A stretch of DNA of 51,736 nt. It comes from a virus. Under the pieces are notes generated by a model. That model was not told where the DNA came from. It worked only from the letters and a program-made list of their open reading frames with translations, and made no database searches. Both the position numbers and the translations under genes were made by a program. The stretch spans positions 1 through 51,736 of the IMG/VR virus record IMGVR_UViG_3300025864_000003; one strand, 5' to 3'. Positions 9,745 to 37,200 of the stretch are shown one piece after another. Every line of letters begins with the position of its first letter. Position 1 is the stretch's first letter.

Positions 9745-11034
9745 TCACACCCAAGTGATGTACTGGAGACTAGCGTGGCTCTTGGAGCCGTCGATGACCT
9801 TGACGCCCAGCTCACCTAGATAACGCTGCTTCCAGCAGTCGGTACCATCGGGGGTGCTGGTGTCAATGCCCCACTCCATCTTCACGAAGGGGCGGAACTC
9901 GGTCAAGAACACCTTCTTGGTGTTGATGATGAAGAGGTCCGACTTGCTACAGTTCATGCAAGGAACCAGCTCCAGGTCAACGCCGAGGTCCGTTTCAAGG
10001 GACTTCAGAGAACGACCCCACTTGGTCTCATCCTGCGTAATACGCACCTTGTCCGCGCCGAAACCGGCAATCGTACGAAGGTTGTTGGGATGAGTGACGA
10101 CGATCAGTGGACTTGTCATGTCATTACCAGCACTCATCAGGTTAGCGACGAGCTGGTTGATGGCGTTTTCGGTTACAGCCTTAGAGGCATAGTCAACAAG
10201 ACCAGCCGAGTATGCAGCCGCAACGTTCTGGAACTGCTGGAAGCCCTTGGTGGTGCGGGCATACGCATCGGTACCGATCCAGGCGTTAGCCTCGGTGTCG
10301 GCACCCGTAGCAGCACTACCGGGGTTGACAGCACCATACAGAAGCATGCTCTCCATCTCATTCGTAAGCTCAATGAGTCTATCGTCAAACTGACGCTGGA
10401 GAGAGTCGGCAGCAATAAGACGCTTGCTAGCCAGCTGCGAACCAGTGACGGTCAGGTAGAAGTCCAGAATCTGCGTGTAGTTAGCCGCAAGGCTAACGTC
10501 GACGTACTTGTTCTCGTCAGGAGACGAGCCTTCGTGCTTCGGAGAAGTAAGAATCTCGATCACCGAAGAGGCCGTATGGACCGCGCTGCCCACGTTGGTG
10601 GTTGAACCAACCGGCTGAGCGTAGTTACGCTTCACCGTAATGTCAGTGCCGTCGTTGGCCGTCACACGCATAACCTCGTCAGCACCATAGGTGCCAATCG
10701 GAGTCGCTAGAGAGACGTTGCGGATGAGAGAGCCAGCCTGCAACGTTTTGCCGATACCAGTACCGCAACCAATCTTCGATGCAGTAGTAGGAGCCGTCGC
10801 GTCGCCAATCCCCTGCGTAGAGGTGCTGGATGCGGCGGAGGTGAAGGTCTTGCCACGCGTGTTTGCCATCTCCCACTCGAACTTGGTACCATCGACGGGC
10901 ACCTTGGGGAAACGGTCAATGAGCTGTGATTTGGCGCACAGCATCGGATAGAGAACACTATCGATGTTGCGTGAATAGGTGTTGGCAGTCTTGTCATAAG
11001 ACGCTATATCAACACCCGGTGTCGGAAATGCCAT
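9745..11034 (-). CDS. major capsid protein (SU10 / DUF5309 type, HK97 fold)
   Basis: A 429-aa protein with the length and layout of DUF5309 (SU10-like) capsid proteins: an N-terminal arm (YSRNIDSVLYPMLCAKSQLIDRFP) leading to the TKFEWEMANT strand, an RQFDDRLIELTNEMESMLLYG spine helix, an IVVTHPNNLRTI segment in the A domain, and a C-terminal beta part (DLFIINTKKVFLTEFRPF). The start at 11034 has a strong AAGGAGG. It has its own promoter about 130 bp upstream, fitting the high output needed for the main shell protein. Scaffold and portal genes lie upstream. Confidence 0.9.
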   Translation of the reverse strand: MAFPTPGVDIASYDKTANTYSRNIDSVLYPMLCAKSQLIDRFPKVPVDGTKFEWEMANTRGKTFTSAASSTSTQGIGDATAPTTASKIGCGTGIGKTLQAGSLIRNVSLATPIGTYGADEVMRVTANDGTDITVKRNYAQPVGSTTNVGSAVHTASSVIEILTSPKHEGSSPDENKYVDVSLAANYTQILDFYLTVTGSQLASKRLIAADSLQRQFDDRLIELTNEMESMLLYGAVNPGSAATGADTEANAWIGTDAYARTTKGFQQFQNVAAAYSAGLVDYASKAVTENAINQLVANLMSAGNDMTSPLIVVTHPNNLRTIAGFGADKVRITQDETKWGRSLKSLETDLGVDLELVPCMNCSKSDLFIINTKKVFLTEFRPFVKMEWGIDTSTPDGTDCWKQRYLGELGVKVIDGSKSHASLQYITWV

Positions 11035-13859: not shown

Positions 13860-16800
13860 TTAGTAGTTATACCAGTCTAGAAGTCTGCCGCCGACGTTAG
13901 AACTGCCGCCGAAGTATTCCTTTATGTCGTTTTTGAAGCGCGGGTTCACCGAGGACATTTGTTTGATAGCGGAGTTCAGATCACCGGACAACTGTCCGCC
14001 CAACTTGGTGCCTACACTGTTACCCTTTGCCTCATACCAGTCGCTGTAGCTATTCGTTAGTTGCTTTCGGTAGTCGTGAGCCGTCTCAAGGATTCGGTGC
14101 CACATCCTCACTCTACCAATCTCCAACGCTCGCTGTTCCTCGGGTTGCGCCGTCCCCTTAGCCGAGAATTTCTCCCACGCAGACTCAATAGCATCTGAGT
14201 TCGGAGACTTGCTGTTGATTTCGCGGTCTCTCACCTTCACATACCCCAACCAGGCCGTATGCGCCTCGCGTGCACGAGGTCCAGTTCCTATGGTGGTGAG
14301 GACTGGCTCCGAAAAGTGACTTATGTGCTCCAGTCTGTCATCAAGCCCCCCGATGAGGGCCTTGCCGCCCTTCAGTCCGCCGAGTAACTTCTTCTGTAGG
14401 GCGTAGTAGGCGTTGTGACCGTCCTTGTATTCCTGGGAGGGCGACTTGGCCTTGTGCCAGTTTTCGTAGGCTACCCTTAGTTGCTCCTGGGCCATATTTA
14501 TCTTGGGGTCAGCCGGTTTGCCAGTGACGAGCTGCAACTGATCCGATGTTATGAAGTACCACTGGTCAGAGGCGAGGGCTATGGTTGCCTTCAAGATGCC
14601 CTGCTTCTGTTCGGCCCTCGTGGCAGCAATGTTCTGACTTTCGGGGGTCTCCGAGATAAGCCTGTTGCCAAGATTCGGGTCCGCCATCATGTTCTTCAGT
14701 TGGAAGGCGCGACTCAAATCTTCATCGGAAACGGTGAATGGCGTAAGACGTACTTCTCCCTCGGCCGTGGCGGCTTGCTGGATGAAGTTGATGTCATACT
14801 CGTTATAGTCCAGGCCCCTGGACCTTATGATGTCGTTCCATAGCCCCCACCCGAGTCGCCTGCCAGTGTCCGGGTCCACCCCTCCGGGGTGCTCGAAACG
14901 ATATAGAAGCTGAGACTCGCTAAACCCCGTCTCCCTGCCCACCTGCTTGGCAATGGCCTTCGCCCAGTCCTTACGTTGTTGTATCAATTTCTCAGTACCC
15001 TTTTGAAGGGCCTCCAGCTTGATATCCCCCATGTAGTAAACGGAAGAGGTTCTATCTTTACCCGCCACGTAGTGTCCGCCGTAAATATCGGTGATTACGT
15101 TGTGGTAGGCCGCGATTCGTGCGGCATCGGTCAAACGTTCCCCACCATTGTTGAAGAATGACTCCTGCCAGTCCACGGGATTCATTTCCATGTTGGCGTT
15201 GTCGTAGTTGTATGGTGACTGCCACCACTTCAGCATGTTGAAGTTGGCTGGGTCCTTCTTCATGGCTAACTTTTCTTCGTTGCTGGCGTCGTGATAACGT
15301 AGGTCCTTGTCGAAGTTGGGATACTTCTCGCGGACAAGGTTCATCCCGGCGAAGTCTTTTGCCTTCAAGGCGGACTGGTACTCAAAGTACGCACTCTGCA
15401 TTTCTCTCGGTTCCTTGGGCGAGTACATGACGCCGAAGGGAGTGGGGGAGAAGCTCTTGGTCATCTCGTTATACAGGGCCTCTGGGCGAAGATGCTTTTC
15501 TCCCCATCCACCCTTCCCACCAGTCAGCGCCCATAGAGCCTTCACTCCGAGGGGTGCATTATCAAGATTTACACCCGTAGAACCGCTCCCCTCGGGTCCG
15601 TACTTTGTCCAGGCCATGATGGCGTTAGCATGCGCGGTTTCGAGCTTGTTTACATCTCCGAAGATGGACTCCGAAATATCTCCCAGGGTGGTGTCACCGG
15701 TGAGCCCGTATGTCAACCTTGCTATTCTTTGGAATGGAGACATGGTGTTGCCCAGCCCCTTCAGGAGGGGGAAATTCGCATAGTCCTTGGGGTCCTCTCC
15801 CAGGGCGCTTATGCCCGCCCGAATACCTATCAGTGGTATTAGGCCGGCGCTCGGGGACTGCGCAGCCACCTGATCCCAGAATCCCGCCCCAGTCTCTGAG
15901 TCCGGTGCCCAGAAGGGGATTTGCGGTGTGATGAACTGGCTGTCGCCGCTGGTGAATCCGAATGGGTCCCGAAGAAACTCGGGATAATTCTTCTGGAACG
16001 CGGCAAGGGCCAGGGGGTGCTTTGCAACGGCCCCCGCCCAGTACACGAAGAACTGTCGATAGGCGCTGATGAAGGGAACCATGTTTCTTGACATATCCTC
16101 GAACATGGTGGTGGAGTTGCTGTAGGCGGTCTGGTGTGCATACTTCACGGCGGTCTCGCCTGCTATTCGATGCATCTCCTCCGGACTGGTTTCAATCTCG
16201 CCAGCAGCCCTAGCCAACTTGTTCCGCTCGATGAGTTTGTTGCGCACCGTGTAGTATTTATCGTTGAACAGCTGTCGTTTTGTCCACTCCCCAATGCCCT
16301 GCATCAACTTGCTACTACCGTATTTGAAGACGTAGTGGTAGGGGTTGAGGGCAGAGGCTCCATACAGGGGATTCCTCAGTCCAATCTTTACACCCTCCGC
16401 AAGGCCGTTTCTTATGGGGGCGTTTACTGGATATAGGAACGGCTTCCCCGGGCCACTTCCCCACGCCTCTAGTTCCTGCACGGTGGGGGCTGCCCCCTCC
16501 ATTGCCTTCCTCATCGGCTCGTGATCGGAAAAGAGTTTCGCCCTGTCATACCAGTTGTTACACCATTCCTCAAACTCGGGGGTGTTGTAAGTACCGGGAC
16601 CCGCGCCCTTGCCCTTGATACTACGATAGGTATCATTGAGGAAGTTCCTCATATCGGTCGCGTCCTGCGTGTATTCCATCTTTCCTGTTTTGGGATTTTT
16701 TACGCGCTCATCGCGTATGCGACGAATGAAGCCCTTCAGGTCCTTGGGGTTTGTGGGGAACTTTCCCTTCCCACCGAAGTTCTTGCTGGCGACGAGTCTC

Positions 16801-19800
16801 TTGACAATAGGCTCTCTAGCCCAGGAGCTAAGATCATCACGAAGGGCTGCATAATATCCGGGCTCAGTCGGAGTGAGTGCGTGCCACTCTCCCGAGGTGT
16901 TCGCCATATCCCAGTCTCGTGCCATCCCGTCTCTCAGCTTCAACTCGAACTCAGTGAAGTCGGTGCCGTCTAATTTTACTTCCTTGACCCCCCTGCGGAG
17001 TCCGGTCTTTCTGAGAATCCAGTCGGGCTTGCCAGCTGGCAGGAACATGGGTTCGCCGTCAAGGTCTTTGCGCAGTTTGCGCACGGTCCACATTCTGCTG
17101 ACTACACCCTCCGGAACAAATCGCGCTATCTCATCCCCGATGTTGACGCGAATGGGGAAGGCTAGCGAGGCCATAACGGTTTCCTTGAACATGCGCATTA
17201 CCGGCTCAGCCACCAATTGATCCGCAAGCATGAAGTCTCTTGGAGCCTTTCCGCTCATATACCATCCGGCGATGCGGGGGTCATACTGGTGATAGATGTG
17301 GGTGCGGATTTGACCCTGCTTGAACGGCTGTGCCGTGCGCATATCACTAAGTTCGTTTACAGCCGTGTCATATTTGATTTCCTCACTGGGAGAAAGTCGC
17401 TTCTTCTGACCAAGTTCTTGTACGATCTTGGCAGCCTCGGTCCTTCTCGTTACCTTGGCGGTGGCCTCGAATACCGCGTCACTCATCTTGCCGATGTCGG
17501 CGGGAGATGCGCCAAGTTCGGTGGACAACTTGGCCATATCAATCCGAGCCTGAGCAATGGCGGGGTTCGTGATCAGTTGGTCGCGCTGGCGATTGAGTTG
17601 GGCCAGCTCGCGTCTCTTGTTGGTGAGGGCGGCTCCGCCCTTCTTCCCCTTGCCGGTTTTTACTCCGGTGTGTGCATATCTAGTCTGGTCGCGACCCGTA
17701 AGTTCATACTTCTTTGTCTTTGGATTGTACTTTCTAGTCTCCGTATATCCGGTGCCATCACTGCGTAGGTGGGTGCGCTGGTTGTCTTTCCACGCACTAG
17801 TTTTTCCCGTTGTGGGTGCGGGTTCCCCAGGCTTCACCACGTGCTTCGCATAATAACCCTGCTCAAGTTGGTCCACCTCGTCTCCCAGCTGTGTCTCCTT
17901 ACCCGCCCACAACTCGTCCCACTTGCGCAACGCGCCCTGTGACACCTCATCCAGACTGCGCTCCAGATCGGAAGGAAGAACAAGGGAACCCTCCACCAAG
18001 GTTCTTTCTCCGGTCTTCTTGTCGATGGCATACTTGGGGAGGTAAGAGTGACCCAGTATCTCATCCACATATCGTTGTCCACGAGTCCAGAGAATATGCC
18101 GATTGTACGCCTTGAAGTCATCCAGTTTGTCGCCCAGATTGTTTTCAAAGGTTTTCCACATCTCATCGACTATCTTCTGCTTGCCTCCGGGGTGAGCCTC
18201 GTACACCCTGCGGGAGAAGTCCTGCAATTGCCGAAGAGCTGCCTTTCTCCCCGCCCTGGTGGTGGCACCCATGCGAATAGCTTTTCCCACCTGGAATGTG
18301 TCCTCGGCAGCAGTGGCAATGTCGGACGTTTTGCCATACATGGTCATGGTGTTGAAGATACGAGCCCAACCCAGTTGGCCGAAGCCCCTCTCCCCGAGGG
18401 AGTAGCGAAGTTGCTTTATCATAGCACTCTTGCCACCGTCAATTTCGACGCCCTTGATCTCCAGCTTCCTCAGCAGACCCTCCACCTCGATGTGAGACTT
18501 GCTGGCCGCAACCTGCTTCACCAAGTCCTGTATCTCGGGAATGTCCTCGGGAGCCTTCAGTAACCGATTGACTACGAAGGGGTCCTCAATCTTGGCAAAG
18601 AGCTCTGCGTTGGTGCGAAGGAAAGCGGGTGGGGCATATGTATGTACTTCTCGTTTCTTGACGAGGCCCTTGACTGTGCGCGTGACGGACTCTACGAGTC
18701 CACCGCCCAAACTGTACATCGTGGCACTTTCTCCGTCGATTCCGTGGGGAAGAAATGGGCTGGTGGGGTCGGAGATGTGCTTGTGTAGTACCTCGTCGGC
18801 GCGCGCAACATATGAGTTGTATGCATCGAAATCGCCCTCAACCCTACCCACATCGAGGGGTTTTCTCTCCATCCAGTCGTTGCCCACCTCCTTGAATCCG
18901 CGCTTGGCGTACACGTCCTTCAGTGCATCTTTCGCCATCTTCTCGGCCCCAAAGGGAACAGCCTCAAGCCGCAGGGTAATACCCGAGTTGTCTGCGGCGG
19001 ACACCAGATCGTCAATGACGCTCCCGCCGAATCCCTGTCCACGCGACTCCAGTGGAGTCTCGAGATTCTTCACTACGACCTTGGGTCCCTCGGCCTTCAT
19101 GGCCAGACGAACGTCATTCTCAAGATAACCTGCGGTGAGAGGCTTGCCGGTTTCATTCGGCACGTTGCGGAACGAGAGGAAATCGTCCATAAAGTTCTCT
19201 GGTGTATCTGGGGGAGACGGTTTGCGTGGTGGCGCATCCCTCGGATCAAGCGCCTTGAACTCGTCCCTATCCAGTGGTTGCACGCGAGGCTTTCCATTTA
19301 CATCTTTCGCGACCTTGACCAGAGCTGGGTCTCCCGGTGCCTCGGGGTGACTGAGGTGGAGACGTCCCCTCCCAGCATCCACGGCCCCGGGGAAGAACTC
19401 TCGTGGTTTGCCCGTTGCGTCTTCCCTGAGTTTGGCAACACGCTTGCCCCAGTTTGCTGCTGGTTTCTTTTTCCCGACCGCCTTCTCCAGGTCGTCAATG
19501 AGTCCTGAGTCGATCTTTCCGCCCCCGGCCACAACCTTTTCAAGATGTAAAAGATGGTTCAAGCTATCGGGCATAATGGTCCGAACGTTCATTGAGATGG
19601 TTTCATTGGCAATCTTATTGCGTTCCCGGAGAGCGTCGGCGTGCTCCTTGCTATCCTTGCCGTAGATTTTCTCGGCCATATCAACTTTCTCTCCGGCCTT
19701 CTGCTCTAGGGCGGTGCGTTCCCTCACGAGTGCCGATGTCTGCTCCAACGTTCTCACCTCGGGGGGGGTCGGCGTTGGTCTATGGAGTTTCCCGGCAGCA

Positions 19801-21692
19801 TCTTCGGTGGCCTTAGCCTCCCGGATGGCCTTGCCCGCATTTCCACCAGCGGGCATGCCAGCGTTTTCAAAGGGAACACCACTAGGATGGCTCAAATCGA
19901 GGAATCCCGCTTCGCTTCCGGCCAACTTCCCGAACGCCGCCCAATCAATTATGTAAGCACTGCCCATGCGAAAACCCGCGCGAGTCGCAACAAATGCGCC
20001 ATGTGCACCAGCCTGTGCCCCGGACACAACCAGCGGGTCAAGTGTACTCCCAACATACACCTGTAACGCAAGGTTCGCTATATCGGACGCATCCTTGAGA
20101 TAGGCGGGCATCTTCCCGGTCTCGCCGTAAGAAGCGTTCTCAAAGGCGATGTGGAACAGGTTGTCGCCACCAGCCTCCTCGCGTGCCTTCTTCCACGTGT
20201 CGGCATCCATCAGGGCCTGCCAGTTGAAGGGCTGGTCCTTTTCCATCTTCGCCTTACCACCAGATGCCAGTCCCCTTGCCTTCACCTCGCTCTGCCAGTA
20301 TCCCTGGGTCGCATAGTCCAGCGCCACTTGCGCAGTCGCTAAACCCTTGAGCGCCTCGTTGAACGGTCCATAGATGTAGCCGCTGGCTTCGCCCACATCC
20401 TTACCCATTTCCTTCAGAACGGTTCCAACCCCCGGCACCTTGAGGACCTGCTTTGCGGGCCAGAGAAGTGTTCCGAAGGCTTTTCCGATAGACTCCATGG
20501 CGGTGTCCGTCTCCTCCTCGTACACCTCGCGTTGCTTTGCTGGAAGACGCTCTGCATCGAACTCCTTCACATATTGCGCGCGTCTCTCCGTCTCACTCAT
20601 GCCGATGGGACGAGAGAACTGCCACTCGTCGTAGGAGAAGGTTTTTACGGTATCGTCGTCTGCATATCGCATGGCCTCCAGGGTAGACTTCACGGTGTCA
20701 CTCTGCGCCCACTGGGTAGTATCCAGTCCGAGTCTGTGAGCTGCCCGCTCTACACGATCCTTATTGAAGGCAATATTGCGCACCGACGCCATAACGTCAT
20801 TGGCCTTCGCGGTTTGGGAATAGTCACCGTACACCTGATATGCCCACTGACCAGCAAAGACATACTTGTTCTGTATTTTCTCCCACTCCGGTTCCCACTC
20901 CGAAGAGTTGGGGTCGTACTTTATCTTCACCCCACGTTGTGCTAGTCTCTTGGCCATCTCTTTTTTGAACTTGACAATCTCCTCATCGGGGATGATGGGG
21001 CCTACGAAGTCTGAACCGGTAACACGCCATGGGTCCTTGGTGTCACGCTGATACTGTTTTGCGAGCTGTACGCTCTCTAGAGTTGGTTGCGCGGCAAAGG
21101 GACTTGCCAGCGTACCCCTATTTCCCATCGCCCTTGAACCGGCTGGTGCGGGTGCAGAGGCAACACCACCACCCTTCACACCGTCAAGTTCTACCACACC
21201 CTTTCTCTCTCCGTCCGTCAGGTCGCCCCTATCCATGTAGAACATGTCTCCCGCGCGCAGTGCGGGTTTCTCTTCATCGGTAGCATCCGACGTGGGTGAC
21301 CATAACTCATCGTAGAGACCCTTATTCTCCTCGGGGTCTTGAGGCATGGTCCCCTTGTCCAGAAGGAGCTGGAGGGTCGTTATCGGATCGGGAAAAGCTT
21401 TCTGTTGAGAGTAGTATGGGTTGATGATGTTCGCTAGGGACTGTTCCTGGTCCGATTCGGCCGGGGGCTTCGCTATAGAGAGAAGTTCGTTATAGGTCTT
21501 CGGGGGTGCCTTCGGGGCAGCCGTTTTCTGCGGGATGGAGGGAGCGGGGGTGGGATGAGACTTTGCTGGGGTTAGCGTGGGCGCAGCGGGATTACGACTA
21601 CCGCTGGGGAGTCCCTGTTCGCCAACCGGCTTCTTTTTCTTCTTCTTCTTGGGAGGTCTATATGGCTGGTCTTTGGGACCAATAATCGCCAT
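13860..21692 (-). CDS. giant 2610-aa virion / ejected polyvalent-type protein with GNAT-like segment
   Basis: One uninterrupted frame taking about 15 percent of the genome. It opens with a poly-Lys stretch and proline-rich linkers (residues about 1-100), then long helical regions with Gly/Ala segments that might cross a membrane (near residues 540-560). Around residues 850-950 the segment ESRGQGFGGSVIDDLV followed by an AKRGFKEVGNDWMERKP end matches GNAT acetyltransferase motif A and the last strand. Around residue 1880 there is an aromatic hydrophobic stretch (VPFISAYRQFFVYWAGAV). Position between portal and scaffold and the modular build recall polyvalent or internal virion proteins ejected with the DNA. 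Overall function is unknown; the GNAT call is moderate. Confidence 0.75.
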   Translation of the reverse strand: MAIIGPKDQPYRPPKKKKKKKPVGEQGLPSGSRNPAAPTLTPAKSHPTPAPSIPQKTAAPKAPPKTYNELLSIAKPPAESDQEQSLANIINPYYSQQKAFPDPITTLQLLLDKGTMPQDPEENKGLYDELWSPTSDATDEEKPALRAGDMFYMDRGDLTDGERKGVVELDGVKGGGVASAPAPAGSRAMGNRGTLASPFAAQPTLESVQLAKQYQRDTKDPWRVTGSDFVGPIIPDEEIVKFKKEMAKRLAQRGVKIKYDPNSSEWEPEWEKIQNKYVFAGQWAYQVYGDYSQTAKANDVMASVRNIAFNKDRVERAAHRLGLDTTQWAQSDTVKSTLEAMRYADDDTVKTFSYDEWQFSRPIGMSETERRAQYVKEFDAERLPAKQREVYEEETDTAMESIGKAFGTLLWPAKQVLKVPGVGTVLKEMGKDVGEASGYIYGPFNEALKGLATAQVALDYATQGYWQSEVKARGLASGGKAKMEKDQPFNWQALMDADTWKKAREEAGGDNLFHIAFENASYGETGKMPAYLKDASDIANLALQVYVGSTLDPLVVSGAQAGAHGAFVATRAGFRMGSAYIIDWAAFGKLAGSEAGFLDLSHPSGVPFENAGMPAGGNAGKAIREAKATEDAAGKLHRPTPTPPEVRTLEQTSALVRERTALEQKAGEKVDMAEKIYGKDSKEHADALRERNKIANETISMNVRTIMPDSLNHLLHLEKVVAGGGKIDSGLIDDLEKAVGKKKPAANWGKRVAKLREDATGKPREFFPGAVDAGRGRLHLSHPEAPGDPALVKVAKDVNGKPRVQPLDRDEFKALDPRDAPPRKPSPPDTPENFMDDFLSFRNVPNETGKPLTAGYLENDVRLAMKAEGPKVVVKNLETPLESRGQGFGGSVIDDLVSAADNSGITLRLEAVPFGAEKMAKDALKDVYAKRGFKEVGNDWMERKPLDVGRVEGDFDAYNSYVARADEVLHKHISDPTSPFLPHGIDGESATMYSLGGGLVESVTRTVKGLVKKREVHTYAPPAFLRTNAELFAKIEDPFVVNRLLKAPEDIPEIQDLVKQVAASKSHIEVEGLLRKLEIKGVEIDGGKSAMIKQLRYSLGERGFGQLGWARIFNTMTMYGKTSDIATAAEDTFQVGKAIRMGATTRAGRKAALRQLQDFSRRVYEAHPGGKQKIVDEMWKTFENNLGDKLDDFKAYNRHILWTRGQRYVDEILGHSYLPKYAIDKKTGERTLVEGSLVLPSDLERSLDEVSQGALRKWDELWAGKETQLGDEVDQLEQGYYAKHVVKPGEPAPTTGKTSAWKDNQRTHLRSDGTGYTETRKYNPKTKKYELTGRDQTRYAHTGVKTGKGKKGGAALTNKRRELAQLNRQRDQLITNPAIAQARIDMAKLSTELGASPADIGKMSDAVFEATAKVTRRTEAAKIVQELGQKKRLSPSEEIKYDTAVNELSDMRTAQPFKQGQIRTHIYHQYDPRIAGWYMSGKAPRDFMLADQLVAEPVMRMFKETVMASLAFPIRVNIGDEIARFVPEGVVSRMWTVRKLRKDLDGEPMFLPAGKPDWILRKTGLRRGVKEVKLDGTDFTEFELKLRDGMARDWDMANTSGEWHALTPTEPGYYAALRDDLSSWAREPIVKRLVASKNFGGKGKFPTNPKDLKGFIRRIRDERVKNPKTGKMEYTQDATDMRNFLNDTYRSIKGKGAGPGTYNTPEFEEWCNNWYDRAKLFSDHEPMRKAMEGAAPTVQELEAWGSGPGKPFLYPVNAPIRNGLAEGVKIGLRNPLYGASALNPYHYVFKYGSSKLMQGIGEWTKRQLFNDKYYTVRNKLIERNKLARAAGEIETSPEEMHRIAGETAVKYAHQTAYSNSTTMFEDMSRNMVPFISAYRQFFVYWAGAVAKHPLALAAFQKNYPEFLRDPFGFTSGDSQFITPQIPFWAPDSETGAGFWDQVAAQSPSAGLIPLIGIRAGISALGEDPKDYANFPLLKGLGNTMSPFQRIARLTYGLTGDTTLGDISESIFGDVNKLETAHANAIMAWTKYGPEGSGSTGVNLDNAPLGVKALWALTGGKGGWGEKHLRPEALYNEMTKSFSPTPFGVMYSPKEPREMQSAYFEYQSALKAKDFAGMNLVREKYPNFDKDLRYHDASNEEKLAMKKDPANFNMLKWWQSPYNYDNANMEMNPVDWQESFFNNGGERLTDAARIAAYHNVITDIYGGHYVAGKDRTSSVYYMGDIKLEALQKGTEKLIQQRKDWAKAIAKQVGRETGFSESQLLYRFEHPGGVDPDTGRRLGWGLWNDIIRSRGLDYNEYDINFIQQAATAEGEVRLTPFTVSDEDLSRAFQLKNMMADPNLGNRLISETPESQNIAATRAEQKQGILKATIALASDQWYFITSDQLQLVTGKPADPKINMAQEQLRVAYENWHKAKSPSQEYKDGHNAYYALQKKLLGGLKGGKALIGGLDDRLEHISHFSEPVLTTIGTGPRAREAHTAWLGYVKVRDREINSKSPNSDAIESAWEKFSAKGTAQPEEQRALEIGRVRMWHRILETAHDYRKQLTNSYSDWYEAKGNSVGTKLGGQLSGDLNSAIKQMSSVNPRFKNDIKEYFGGSSNVGGRLLDWYNY

Positions 21693-29402: not shown

Positions 29403-30173
29403 ATGGCAGACGCAAAGACACGAGAGCTGACCACCGCAGAAATAGATGCTAGTGTTGCCAAGGCCAACGCCGAGGCTGTCGCGGCACTTGCTGAGGCGGA
29501 GAAGCATAATTCGGAGTCGAAGAAGTACATTGCCGATGCGCGCAAACTATCGGCCGAAGCGATGAGAGCCGAGTGCTTTGCCAAGACCGAGGCCATTGAC
29601 CTTGAGCGTAATCAGGAACTACGCAGACGTGAGTTGTCTCAGGACACATTCCACCACGTTTACCAGTTCATGGGCAAGGTGTCTGAATCGTCAGTCGCCA
29701 CGGCGGTACGTGAGCTTAGTTACTGGAACCGCGACTGTCCTGGGTGCGACATCGAGATTGTCTTGAACAGTCCGGGCGGCGAGGTGATTGCGGGTATGGC
29801 GATGTTCGACTATCTCCAGTTCCTGCGCAGCAAGGGTCACGACATCACGACGGTCTGCATCGGTTATGCGGCCAGCATGGCCGGGATATTGCTACAGGCC
29901 GGTGATACCCGTGTGATGGGGCGCGAGTCCTATGTCCTAATCCATGAAGTCAGCTTCGGTGCTGGCGGCAAGATTGGAGAGGTCGAGGACGAGGTTGCCT
30001 TTGTTCGCAAGATTCAGGAACGCGTTCTCAACATCTTCAGCAAGAGGTCCCTGGAGGCTCAACCCAAGACGGGTCTCACCGTCAAGCAGTTTGCAAATCG
30101 CTGGCGCCGTAAGGACTGGTGGGTCGACTCAGACGAGGCCATGAAACTCGGCATCGTGGACATGGTAAGGTAA
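29403..30173 (+). CDS. ClpP-like serine protease with N-terminal coiled coil
   Basis: A 256-aa protein. Residues 1-80 form an Ala/Glu-rich coiled coil absent from bacterial ClpP. The ClpP fold follows: INSPGG-type oxyanion segment (NSPGGEVIAG, 122-131), nucleophile Ser158 in GYAASMAG, catalytic His181 in LIHEVS, and a C-terminal VDSDEAMKLGIVD. It starts at 29403 behind GAGGAG. It is far from the capsid genes, so host-protein turnover is more likely than head maturation, though the latter cannot be excluded because no other head protease is seen. The coiled coil may replace the Clp ATPase contact or recruit substrates. Confidence 0.88.
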   Translation: MADAKTRELTTAEIDASVAKANAEAVAALAEAEKHNSESKKYIADARKLSAEAMRAECFAKTEAIDLERNQELRRRELSQDTFHHVYQFMGKVSESSVATAVRELSYWNRDCPGCDIEIVLNSPGGEVIAGMAMFDYLQFLRSKGHDITTVCIGYAASMAGILLQAGDTRVMGRESYVLIHEVSFGAGGKIGEVEDEVAFVRKIQERVLNIFSKRSLEAQPKTGLTVKQFANRWRRKDWWVDSDEAMKLGIVDMVR

Positions 30174-30547: not shown

Positions 30548-30557
30548 TTTGTGGGTG

Positions 30558-30563
30558 TATAAT
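30558..30563 (+). promoter_or_regulatory. promoter of the tmRNA-like RNA
   Basis: A consensus TATAAT preceded by TG, with a weak -35 (TTACCT, 30534-30539). The predicted transcription start is 30570-30572, exactly where the folded RNA begins (G-run at 30572), so the primary transcript would need little 5' trimming. Confidence 0.6.
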
Positions 30564-30571
30564 GAGAGAAA

Positions 30572-30651
30572 GGGGGCGGACTGGCTTCGACAGCGGATAA
30601 AGCCAAAGAGCAATCTGCTGGACACGCGTTCGATTCGCGTCGCCTCCACCA
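30572..30651 (+). ncRNA. miniature tmRNA-like RNA (tRNA-like domain without tag reading frame)
   Basis: An 80-nt RNA with both ends of a tmRNA. Acceptor stem GGGGGCG (30572-30578) pairs with CGCCTCC (30641-30647), giving a G3-U70 pair, the alanine identity element, followed by A and encoded CCA. The next bases, CTGGCTTCGA, match the tmRNA D-loop. The T-arm is ACGCG-TTCGATT-CGCGT (30624-30640). In place of the long P2 helix, pseudoknots and tag frame there is one 8-bp helix, CAGCGGAT (30591-30598) with ATCTGCTG (30613-30620), and a 14-nt loop. D-loop TGGCTT can also pair with loop AAGCCA (30600-30605), making an H-type pseudoknot. There is no tag peptide or 7-nt anticodon loop. It should be a substrate for AlaRS and perhaps SmpB; its function is unknown. 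Confidence 0.8.
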
Positions 30652-30674: not shown

Positions 30675-30806
30675 ATGGCCACGTTCAAGAAGGACCCCAA
30701 GAAACCCGCAGTCAAGAAGGGCGTTCCAAATGCAAAGCCCATCCCGATGGTGAAGAAGAAAATTTACAAGACCAAAGTCGGTCCTGTGAAGAAGACCAAG
30801 AAATAG
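30675..30806 (+). CDS. small lysine-rich basic protein
   Basis: A 43-aa protein with 15 Lys and many Pro, e.g. KKDPKKPAVKKGVP and KKKIYKTKVGPVKKTKK. It starts at 30675 behind AGAAGGAG; a longer frame upstream would read through the tmRNA-like RNA and is rejected. The composition suggests nucleic-acid binding, perhaps to the RNA encoded just upstream (24 bp), but this is inference. No family recognised. Confidence 0.65.
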   Translation: MATFKKDPKKPAVKKGVPNAKPIPMVKKKIYKTKVGPVKKTKK

Positions 30807-33241: not shown

Positions 33242-33318
33242 GTGACGGTAGCATAATTGGATAATGCCTTAGGATGTGGCCCTAAGCGATGTGGGTCCGA
33301 GCCCCACCCGTCACTCCA
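33242..33318 (+). tRNA. tRNA-His (GTG)
   Basis: A full cloverleaf: acceptor GTGACGG (33242-33248) with CCGTCAC (33308-33314), T8, D-stem GCAT/ATGC, anticodon stem TTAGG/CCTAA with loop ATGTGGC (anticodon GTG at 33276-33278, T33 present), T-arm GTGGG-TCCGAGC-CCCAC and an encoded CCA. The discriminator base is T and the base before the stem is A, whereas bacterial tRNA-His normally has G(-1) opposite C73. It directly follows the large structured RNA region. Confidence 0.88.
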
Positions 33319-34930: not shown

Positions 34931-36367
34931 ATGATCGAGTGTCCATCCATAGAGGTGCTGGAGTCCATGGGTTTTGATTTCAACACTACATTTGGCGTGG
35001 AGTTCGAGTTCTACTGTGTAGACGAAGACCGTGACGGTGTGGCTGACCATCTCGACAGCACCACCGGCATCAGCACACGTAGTGAACACTACAACCACAT
35101 TGACAATGACCACTACTGGAAGATTGTCTCGGACGCATCCCTGGATAGTTACGAAGATGACGGGGGATACGAGTGCGAGAATTGCGAAGTAAATCCTACG
35201 TGCGACGAGGACTGTGCGTACAACTGCACCCCAAGTTATGATTGCAGCGAGTGCGAGGTGAACACATACGACGGGCCAGAAGGCGAAGGTCCAGAGTGCG
35301 GGGAATGTGCAGAGCTAAACGACTTCCCCTCGTATGAGTGCGGGGATTGCGAGCAAGAGCGATACTGTGACGAGGACTGCTCATACCACTGTAGCCGCAG
35401 CAATTCGGGCAAGGGGGGCATGGAGCTAGTGTCCCCAATCCTGCAAGGCCACAAGGGGCTGAGTCAGGTACACGCCATGTTGGAGGCGCTGGAGGGCCTT
35501 GATTGCAGCGTAGATGAGAGCTGCGGGATGCACCTGCATCTTGACGGCGAGTCTCTAACGCATAACGACATGAAGAACCTTGCGTCCCTATATGTCAAGT
35601 ATGAGGCCACCATCGACAGCATCATGCCTGCTTCCCGTAGAAACAACAGCAATTGTAAATCCATGTGCAACGCAAGGTGGGGCGCCAGGGACTACGGCTG
35701 CGAGGCTCCACGCTTGAAGAAGATTGCGGCCAAGTTCGATGAAATGGAATCCGCCAAGGTTATGAGCGAGCTTCTGGGCATATGGAGAGATCGCTTCATC
35801 AAGCTGAACCTGGAGGCTATGCACGACCACGGAACTGTTGAGTTTCGTCAGCATGGCGGTACTCTGAGTTTCGAGAAGACCATGCACTGGGTTACCCTGT
35901 GCATGAACATGAGGCGCAGAGCTGTATGCGTATCGAAGGTGAGTCTGTCTGCCGAGAGCTACCCGTCTCTGGAGTGTATGATGGACGAGTTGGGGTCCAG
36001 CGAAGAGAGTAGGGCCTTCTGGCTGAAGAGGCGCGACCAATTCGCGGAAGAGGTATCCGCAGACCGTGCTCGTGTTGAGGTGGATGAGGCTAGGCGTGCC
36101 GTACATTACGAACAGCGGGAACACGACGAGCGTGTTGCTGCACAAGAGGCTTGGCGCTGGAACGCGGAGAGAAACGAACGAGGTGCGCAGGCAAGTTGGC
36201 TATTGTGGGACTATCCGATCCCTCTGCCGGATTCGGCATACGAATTACTCGCACGAGACAGAGCCTTCTGGTATTCCCGGGGTGCCGCACAGGCGGCAAG
36301 GGCGGAGAATGAGATACGGCCAGAGCTTCTGTTCGGCGACTATTATATGGCAATGCACGTAGCATAA
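34931..36367 (+). CDS. amidoligase (Amidoligase_2 family) with Cys-rich insertion
   Basis: A 478-aa ATP-dependent amidoligase of the glutamine-synthetase-like fold. Motifs in order: FGVEFEF (21-27) for metal and ATP, GGMELVSPIL (~161), SCGMHLHLDG (~200), and VEFRQHGGTL (~302), all standard for the family, which joins carboxylates to amines on peptides or metabolites. Unusual is an insertion at residues ~80-157 with 14 Cys in two tandem copies of YECxxCExxxxCDEDCxYxC, likely zinc-binding. The C-terminus is an Arg/Glu helix (RVEVDEARRAVHYEQREHDE). Start at ATG 34931, with GAGGAGG 10 bases upstream. The next gene is a cyclotransferase, the classic partner. Confidence 0.88.
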   Translation: MIECPSIEVLESMGFDFNTTFGVEFEFYCVDEDRDGVADHLDSTTGISTRSEHYNHIDNDHYWKIVSDASLDSYEDDGGYECENCEVNPTCDEDCAYNCTPSYDCSECEVNTYDGPEGEGPECGECAELNDFPSYECGDCEQERYCDEDCSYHCSRSNSGKGGMELVSPILQGHKGLSQVHAMLEALEGLDCSVDESCGMHLHLDGESLTHNDMKNLASLYVKYEATIDSIMPASRRNNSNCKSMCNARWGARDYGCEAPRLKKIAAKFDEMESAKVMSELLGIWRDRFIKLNLEAMHDHGTVEFRQHGGTLSFEKTMHWVTLCMNMRRRAVCVSKVSLSAESYPSLECMMDELGSSEESRAFWLKRRDQFAEEVSADRARVEVDEARRAVHYEQREHDERVAAQEAWRWNAERNERGAQASWLLWDYPIPLPDSAYELLARDRAFWYSRGAAQAARAENEIRPELLFGDYYMAMHVA

Positions 36368-36378
36368 TGGGAGGCTAT

Positions 36379-37200
36379 ATGACGAAGGACTACAAGAGGT
36401 TGTGGAAGTGGGTTGACCCCGAGGCATACAGACAGAAGATGGAGGACAAATACGAACATCACCCGCGCCTTTACATAGCATATGGAAGCAACCTGAACAT
36501 ACCGCAGATGCAGGCACGTTGCTACACTGCGAAGCAAGTAAGGGTCGTGAATCTTCTCGACTATGAGCTGGTGTTCACAGACGTGCTTACAGTCGAGCCG
36601 TTACTAGGCAGCAAGGTGCCGTGTGGACTGTGGCGCGTGACACCGGAGGACATTGACGCCCTAGACACATACGAGGGCTATCCCCACCTTTACGACAAGG
36701 TATATGTCACCATAAACATTGATGGCGTGGACGAACTGGCGTTCCTGTACGTGTTGGACATCGAATACGAGCTGTCGGCACCATACAGCGGTTACCTTCG
36801 CACCTGCCTTGACGGGTACAGGCAGTGGGGCCTTGACGAGAATGTGCTTAGAATGGCCGAGGCGGCTGCCGTGGACGCCGAGAGGGATGTAGAGAAAACA
36901 CCCATGGAGTGCTCCTCCTGTAACGTAGTTCTACCACGTCCGCTGATGACCAAGACTCGCTTATTTGGATGGATGTGCCTGGACTGTCAGGAAGTCATGT
37001 TCTACGGCCAAGACGGGAATGTGGCATCATACGGACACAACACCATAGGGACACCGAGAACATCGCTGTTGTATGATGACCTGTCGCCTGATTGGGAGAC
37101 TTGCGACCCCAGCGAGCTGGACTGGAGTCCCGGAGGCGACTATGCATATGACGACATGGGGTCGAACAGACAAGCGGATTGTGGAGGAGGATGGAGCTGA
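36379..37200 (+). CDS. gamma-glutamylcyclotransferase (GGCT/AIG2-like) with C-terminal zinc ribbon
   Basis: A 273-aa protein. The cyclotransferase domain (about 30-165) has LYIAYGSNLN (31-40), the substrate loop, and catalytic Glu99 in DTYEGYPHLYDKVYV. Such enzymes release 5-oxoproline from gamma-glutamyl amines. Residues about 177-215 form a zinc ribbon (ECSSCNVVL, WMCLDCQEV), then an acidic tail (YDDLSPDWETCDPSELDW). The start at 36379 has GGGAGG in front; an ATG at 36367 has no such site. Together with the amidoligase it could make and remove an isopeptide or gamma-glutamyl mark, as proposed for amidoligase operons in general. Confidence 0.85.
   Translation: MTKDYKRLWKWVDPEAYRQKMEDKYEHHPRLYIAYGSNLNIPQMQARCYTAKQVRVVNLLDYELVFTDVLTVEPLLGSKVPCGLWRVTPEDIDALDTYEGYPHLYDKVYVTINIDGVDELAFLYVLDIEYELSAPYSGYLRTCLDGYRQWGLDENVLRMAEAAAVDAERDVEKTPMECSSCNVVLPRPLMTKTRLFGWMCLDCQEVMFYGQDGNVASYGHNTIGTPRTSLLYDDLSPDWETCDPSELDWSPGGDYAYDDMGSNRQADCGGGWS

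Follow-up and report, generated by a model that had tools for sequence, protein, structure and literature searches.

In tmRNA, a G3-U70 acceptor pair together with A73 directs AlaRS, the elbow binds SmpB, and the acceptor and T-arm bind EF-Tu. Closest to the locus described here is the tmRNA of the mycobacteriophage DS6A, which is listed as "TLD only" (Mao et al. 2009, via PMC4131195 and PMC11915505); these sources report that E. coli tmRNA is inhibited by RNAs of this type, with inhibition seen whether or not the RNA is chargeable and perhaps exerted via SmpB titration (PMC4131195). A comparable reduction is found in organelles: mitochondria (jakobids, oomycetes) and plastids (~65 bp, Mallomonadaceae) possess CDS-less tmRNAs, in which the tRNA-like half is kept and the tag frame is lost, and which persist alongside SmpB (PMC11915505). 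This kind of RNA is thus already known, from DS6A and from organelles, and the premise of an earlier, sequence-only reading of the DNA analysed here, namely that phage tmRNAs are full length, does not survive the DS6A entry as given in those sources.

The window, meaning the whole stretch of viral DNA that was analysed (51,736 nucleotides, equal to the complete IMG/VR record IMGVR_UViG_3300025864_000003), encodes an 80-nt RNA that the sequence-only reading had described as tmRNA-like and devoid of its tag-coding part. Every structural element of that description holds in the sequence. The Rfam tmRNA model RF00023 matches positions 30572-30651 at 68.2 bits, above its 47-bit cut-off (E=1.5e-24, computed over 51.7 kb and 4227 families), the alignment running from the first model position to the last (1 to 374) but skipping the entire middle. 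In addition, R2, a covariance model built from 20 members of the family detailed below, scores the RNA at 63.3 bits (E=2e-12), the window RNA being outside the R2 training set. Given these two E values, the match is not due to chance. The parts of the RNA and its surroundings are as follows.

30572-30651, plus strand: tagless mini-tmRNA, a complete mature RNA with encoded CCA.
30572-30578, plus strand: acceptor stem, 5' strand, GGGGGCG, with G3 at 30574.
30579-30590, plus strand: tmRNA-type D-loop (..TGGCTTCGA) with the D-stem absent, from the sequence and its alignment to RF00023 and R2.
30591-30598, plus strand: P2 helix, 5' strand, forming 8 pairs with 30613-30620 (covariation in 75 sequences; 94% paired in the R2-fitted alignment).
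30599-30612, plus strand: 14-nt loop AAAGCCAAAGAGCA, an A-rich stretch plus an RCC..G module, the short form of the inner hairpin.
30613-30620, plus strand: P2 helix, 3' strand, with an A-U to G-C exchange involving 30597 in the nearest relative (L267).
30624-30640, plus strand: T-arm, ACGCG TTCGATT CGCGT (T-stem 99.4% paired, with both-side changes, in the family alignment).
30641-30651, plus strand: acceptor stem, 3' strand, CGCCTCC (U70 at 30645), A73 (30648), and the encoded CCA (30649-30651).
30555-30564, plus strand: -10-like box GTGTATAATG, a weak promoter candidate, kept in the nearest relative at another spacing.
30675-30806, plus strand: 43-aa Lys-rich protein (MATFKKDPKKPAVKKG...), just 3' of the RNA, as also in L267.
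29403-30173, plus strand: head maturation protease (phrog_94), 5' of the RNA, noted as neighbourhood only.

The acceptor strands 30572-30578 and 30641-30647 pair with one another, including G3-U70, which together with A73 makes up the alanine identity set proposed from the sequence. A linker of GACTGGC and TTCGAC (30579-30591) leads into the 8-bp helix, in which C30591 and 30592-30598 pair with 30613-30619 and G30620 to enclose the 14-nt loop; GGAC occupies 30620-30623. The 80 nt thus run in the order GGGGGCG, GACTGGC, TTCGAC, AGCGGAT, AAAGCCAAAGAGCA, ATCTGCT, GGAC, T-arm, CGCCTCC, A, and CCA. The minimum-energy fold is predicted to include the acceptor, P2, and T stems, and is moderately more stable than its shuffles (-30.9 versus -24.1 kcal/mol, z -2.3).

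Canonical tmRNA (RF00023), including the full-length phage tmRNAs of Wildcat, Bxz1, and the Streptomyces BE phages, has the same acceptor, D-loop, T-arm, G3-U70, and A73. It differs from the window RNA in possessing an mRNA-like domain, a tag, and pseudoknots; in the window RNA, the tag reading frame and stop codon are missing (80 nt in total, with 28 nt inside TTCGAC...GGAC), PK1-PK4 have given way to the 8-bp helix and its 14-nt loop so that P2 is capped by a short hairpin, and both halves of the tRNA-like domain are contiguous. Two-piece (permuted) tmRNA likewise includes a short acceptor-bearing RNA, but here both acceptor strands lie on one 80-nt RNA in normal order, and no coding piece was found in the record. 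The alanine identity set is also common to tRNA-Ala, from which the window RNA differs by having neither D-stem nor anticodon arm. No tRNA or tmRNA is called at this site by ARAGORN, the other search that bears on the sequence-only reading; its sole call in the window is tRNA-His(gtg) at 33242-33318 (+). No second RF00023 match occurs in the whole 51,736-base record.

Five terminase relatives of the window were found in IMG/VR. In the nearest of these (L267, 88%), the RNA occupies the corresponding site (62.4 bits), and in a blastn comparison only the terminase gene and the RNA (93% over 87 nt) align between the two, the noncoding flanks having diverged; within the RNA, the one P2 difference is the compensatory A-U to G-C exchange listed above. 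Relatives at 62-76% terminase identity (G002-G005) gave no RNA match in the records or fragments searched. The RNA is thus dispensable in this lineage and, being kept in L267 and absent from the G002-G005 stretches, is under selection where present, having been gained or lost.

It had been proposed that a TATAAT box is placed such that the transcript would begin with base 1 of the fold. The box exists (30558-30563, 8 nt 5' of the fold); nevertheless, no good -35 box lies near it, and the promoter scan omits the site. The GGTGTATAATG box is identical in L267 but stands 28 nt, not 8 nt, 5' of the fold; a start exactly at the 5' end of the fold is therefore not conserved, and in L267 a leader would need to be removed by RNase P. 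Across the family, -10 boxes are in slight excess upstream (12/117 at -20 to -4, versus typically 1-7 at other positions, plus a second rise to at most 10 near -60), for which reason we reject an own promoter as a family trait. No T-run terminator was found downstream of family RNAs. In the window, co-transcription with the gene for the 43-aa Lys-rich protein is possible. As for the remainder of the window, the phrog_94 protease gene lies on the strand opposite to, and ~18 kb from, that of the major head protein (phrog_1328; 9745-11034, minus strand); an amidoligase gene (phrog_2443; 34931-36367, plus strand) adjoins one for a gamma-glutamyl cyclotransferase (phrog_2520; 36379-37200, plus strand); and a 2610-aa open frame (13860-21692, minus strand) may encode a giant virion-associated protein.

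Two patterns were used to search IMG/VR, each returning at least 120 viral-contig stretches: (i) the first demanded 20-50 nt between a tmRNA D-loop and T-loop, far below full-tmRNA length, while (ii) the second left positions 66-70 and 73 free. Matches were screened for an acceptor and a T-stem, with P2 not serving as a filter. At least 116 distinct relatives were recovered, 84 of which are <80% identical to each other, among the matches listed. A MAFFT alignment of 80 diverse members misaligned the acceptor and yielded a model of only 10 pairs (R1), which was dropped in favour of R2; the latter finds 98 of 100 loci tested. Inside P2, most members combine a 3-bp hairpin with an A-rich segment (consensus ~AAARCCG-CAUG-CGGA), for which AAAGCCAAAGAGCA of the window is a short form common to several members; a UAA stop codon in the loop was rejected as a family feature, as many members have GAAA or UUAG instead. 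CCA is encoded in 29 of the 99 members with GGAC in place, among the matches listed. Two different mini-tmRNAs (L055 6175-6254 and L094 ~8205) reside on one 136-kb phage contig (IMGVR_UViG_3300027749_000047), and an Anaerolineae contig displays neighbouring R2 matches of 35.9 and 64.5 bits (L217 592-668 and 737-800) as a possible tandem pair. At three loci, ARAGORN fuses the RNA to unrelated DNA as a false full-length tmRNA (L010 2976-3318, L112 2266-2698, and L114 5905-6228).

Base pairing in the family was assessed in two ways. In 75 sequences, in which acceptor and T-stem counts are conditioned on the screen and P2 is unfiltered, the variable P2 pairs 1-6 are standard in 84-97% of cases versus ~42% in shuffles, each of these six pairs showing all four Watson-Crick types. 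In the 98-member R2 alignment, which is fitted to the model and hence leans towards it (a bias from which the 75-sequence P2 test is free), 97.3% of cells pair, both-side changes occur at 18/22 pairs, and the covariation score is 0.715, versus 0.140 when shuffled and ~0.08 with slid partners. G3-U70 is present in 98/98 members while the other inner acceptor pairs vary. Among the matches listed, the 3-70 pair is G-U and position 73 is A in 99/99 GGAC-bearing members; 28 of these have a 4-69 pair other than G-C, all from the pattern leaving positions 70 and 73 free. The same two features are invariant in the phages that were retrieved by BLAST and not by pattern. Since pairs 4-69, 5-68, and 6-67 vary freely, this invariance is not mere relatedness. 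The window RNA has the family hallmarks of G3-U70, A73, and three stems (acceptor, P2, and T) that covary; the acceptor stem, the D-loop of tmRNA type, the T-arm, and the P2 helix with its cap form one self-contained 80-nt RNA under selection for base pairing.

Homologues with compensatory stem changes, whose lack the sequence-only reading had named as refuting it, thus exist. These data also dispose of the notion that the locus is a decayed remnant of a host tmRNA left at an attachment site, which that reading had likewise named as what would undo it. The ssrA gene is indeed a common integration site, but a partial, unselected copy is refuted by the covariation and invariance: both ends are kept, the internal helix covaries, the RNA occurs in many unrelated phages, and a compensatory change has taken place in the lineage of the window itself. 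We consider the chance that this explanation is correct to be negligible.

Judged from sequence comparison, the mini-tmRNAs constitute a large family, for the most part unannotated, that is spread over unrelated phages and probably jams or bypasses ribosome rescue in the host. For the window region (blastn) and the window terminase (tblastn), INPHARED returned no match; cultured carriers were retrieved with two BLAST queries built from many mini-tmRNAs and then confirmed by R2. They comprise the Streptomyces phages Shaeky (92 bits, RNA inside a tRNA array), LuckySocke (88 bits), pSt2308 (84 bits), BRock (78 bits), Riptide (61 bits), and Alone3 (60 bits), Stenotrophomonas phage Jojan60 (82 bits), and Pontimonas phage phiPsal1 (79 bits); GiJojo was found by BLAST with 97.4% identity to the LuckySocke query. 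None of these records carries an RNA annotation at the site. The Riptide mini-tmRNA (L294 1977-2053) has a diverged D-loop, with TTAGAT for TTCGAC, and coexists with a full-length tmRNA (PV654398.1 94862-95130). Microbacterium phage Dismas (L292 1939-2027) displays an unannotated derived form adjoining tRNA-Gln, with a 7-bp acceptor containing G3-U70, the T-arm kept, and the D-loop changed to GGTTCGCCG. Two other BLAST matches were rejected: Caulobacter phage CcrSC, in which the 5' part is missing, and cyanophage S-CAM1, which instead appears to encode a permuted tmRNA (L296 2000-2090), unannotated in HQ634177.1.

In bacterial genome contigs, 103 pattern matches reduced to 10 real mini-tmRNAs with 7/7 acceptor pairs, most of the 103 being chance occurrences of TTCGAC within full-length host tmRNA genes. 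The real cases include contigs of Cellulosimicrobium, a Mycobacterium MAG, Sinomicrobium, and Acidimicrobiales, as well as Anaerolineae, Bacillota, cyanobacteria, and Prochlorococcus. As full-length tmRNA was detected with RF00023 in 4 of 5 mini-bearing host genomes searched (G006, G007, G009, and G010), and as real mini-tmRNAs are few in bacterial genomes, the mini-tmRNA is not a replacement tmRNA. Therein lies the difference from the organellar CDS-less tmRNAs, which replace the only tmRNA of their compartment; the phage RNAs would act beside a full-length host molecule. With DS6A, the window RNA has in common that it is phage-encoded and comprises little beyond the tRNA-like domain, DS6A-type RNA being reportedly inhibitory to E. 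coli tmRNA; DS6A, compared here by its published description, is one reported phage, whereas the present family numbers at least 116 distinct covarying members in phages of several phyla. No description of a phage mini-tmRNA family was found in the literature searched, an absence that is not itself proof. What is new is the breadth of the family, the internal A-rich/hairpin module, the quantified strict alanine identity, and the cultured carriers.

Contexts differ among loci, and no shared partner gene or protein was found, suggesting a trans-acting RNA. Certain sites recur nonetheless: the prohead protease/major capsid interval (as in phiPsal1, in which the RNA lies between these two genes), the terminase/portal interval, positions beside DnaB-type helicases, and tRNA arrays. 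The first of these would suit a role in transcript processing, in which the tRNA-like fold marks a cleavage site that separates mRNAs of late or head operons, at the protease/capsid or the terminase/portal interval; yet any tRNA would serve that end, leaving the tmRNA elbow and G3-U70 unexplained along with the loci within tRNA arrays or next to helicase genes, and we deem such a role improbable. In Streptomyces phages, the arrays are accompanied by RNA ligase genes, and a tRNA lies within 300 bp of the mini-tmRNA in 20/27 tRNA-bearing loci (versus a 4.9% control over all loci), as might be expected of a counter-defence RNA or spare part, produced along with the tRNAs of the phage as a decoy or substitute for RNAs that host tRNA nucleases or other defences cleave. 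Against this stand the 89 of 116 stretches without any tRNA gene (among the matches listed), and no known defence reading the tmRNA elbow was found in this analysis; the proposal is thus very improbable. No smpB gene was detected near the mini-tmRNAs in the stretches fetched, so it is host SmpB that would be used; a candidate smpB-carrying locus (L297) was set aside as an unverified fecal record whose RNA match is not a confident mini-tmRNA.

Taken together, the tmRNA determinants and the reported inhibition of E. coli tmRNA by TLD-only RNAs make competition with host tmRNA the best reading; that the mini-tmRNA is an alanylated, SmpB-binding competitor has, in our estimation, about an even chance of being correct, charging and SmpB binding being predictions from the conserved determinants. 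Following maturation by tRNA enzymes, the RNA would be charged by AlaRS via G3-U70 and A73, with its elbow and acceptor arm binding host SmpB and EF-Tu. The charged complex would then rival host tmRNA in the infected cell for SmpB and stalled ribosomes. Upon entry into a ribosome on a truncated mRNA, the nascent chain would move onto the alanine; with the messenger domain missing there is no resume codon, hence no tag would be added and trans-translation would stop. Such ribosomes might be cleared by drop-off or by ArfA/ArfB-type factors. The phage would thereby keep truncated (phage) proteins from being tagged and then degraded by ClpXP-type proteases, or blunt tmRNA-dependent host responses.

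Of the functions raised by the sequence-only reading, the stand-alone tRNA-like domain with alanine identity is upheld, and now with selection acting on it, and a decoy against trans-translation leads; sequestration of AlaRS fares worse, as it explains the SmpB-type elbow poorly. A pure sponge would titrate SmpB or AlaRS without ribosome entry, with alanine identity a by-product or an aid to AlaRS sequestration. The elbow motif is always retained, and inhibition independent of chargeability, perhaps through SmpB titration, is reported in PMC4131195; for an AlaRS sponge, the elbow would be unnecessary, and neither sponge has need of an invariant G3-U70 and A73 where the inner acceptor pairs vary. 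Since the charging determinants are invariant even though the inhibition described there reportedly needs no charging, titration of SmpB cannot be the whole explanation. The invariance suggests that the charged form matters, making ribosome entry probable rather than SmpB soaking alone, and we hold a pure sponge to be distinctly unlikely.

The same strictly conserved determinants, unneeded by a sponge, would be accounted for by tagless rescue, in which the alanylated RNA and SmpB enter the stalled ribosome and accept the nascent chain, with clearance by drop-off or a release-factor back-up, and ribosomes are returned to the phage with the protein untagged. The same idea has been discussed for mitochondrial tmRNAs without a tag frame; the persistence of mitochondrial and plastid CDS-less tmRNAs alongside SmpB (PMC11915505) and the coexisting full-length tmRNA of Riptide point in the same direction. 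With neither resume nor stop codon, the release step goes unexplained, and the effect reported for such RNAs in E. coli is inhibition; tagless rescue thus strikes us as unlikely, if credible. Several matters temper the competitor reading as well: a full-length tmRNA together with a mini-tmRNA in Riptide is odd for a phage merely shutting trans-translation off, and warns against so simple a story; the conserved A-rich/hairpin module in P2 is given no role; the genomic surroundings vary; and the TerL relatives at 62-76% identity do without the RNA in the records or stretches searched. A broader proposition, that alanylated, SmpB-bound phage RNAs are widespread and enter stalled ribosomes, whether to perform tagless rescue or to freeze it, as a general viral override of trans-translation with the A-rich/hairpin module replacing the messenger domain, is offered tentatively, as we would sooner bet against it.

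Ultimately, our analysis turns a single curiosity (DS6A) into a large, testable family. Unrelated phages retain a non-tagging tmRNA whose alanine identity is held by selection while most else varies, and which annotation tools either miss (ARAGORN) or mis-join (L010, L112, and L114). As cultured hosts exist, direct tests are possible. If these RNAs block or bypass trans-translation, they would be natural minimal tmRNAs with which to probe the tRNA-like half alone on the ribosome, the same question as that posed by the tag-less organellar tmRNAs, and they would point to ribosome rescue as a common battleground between phage and host.
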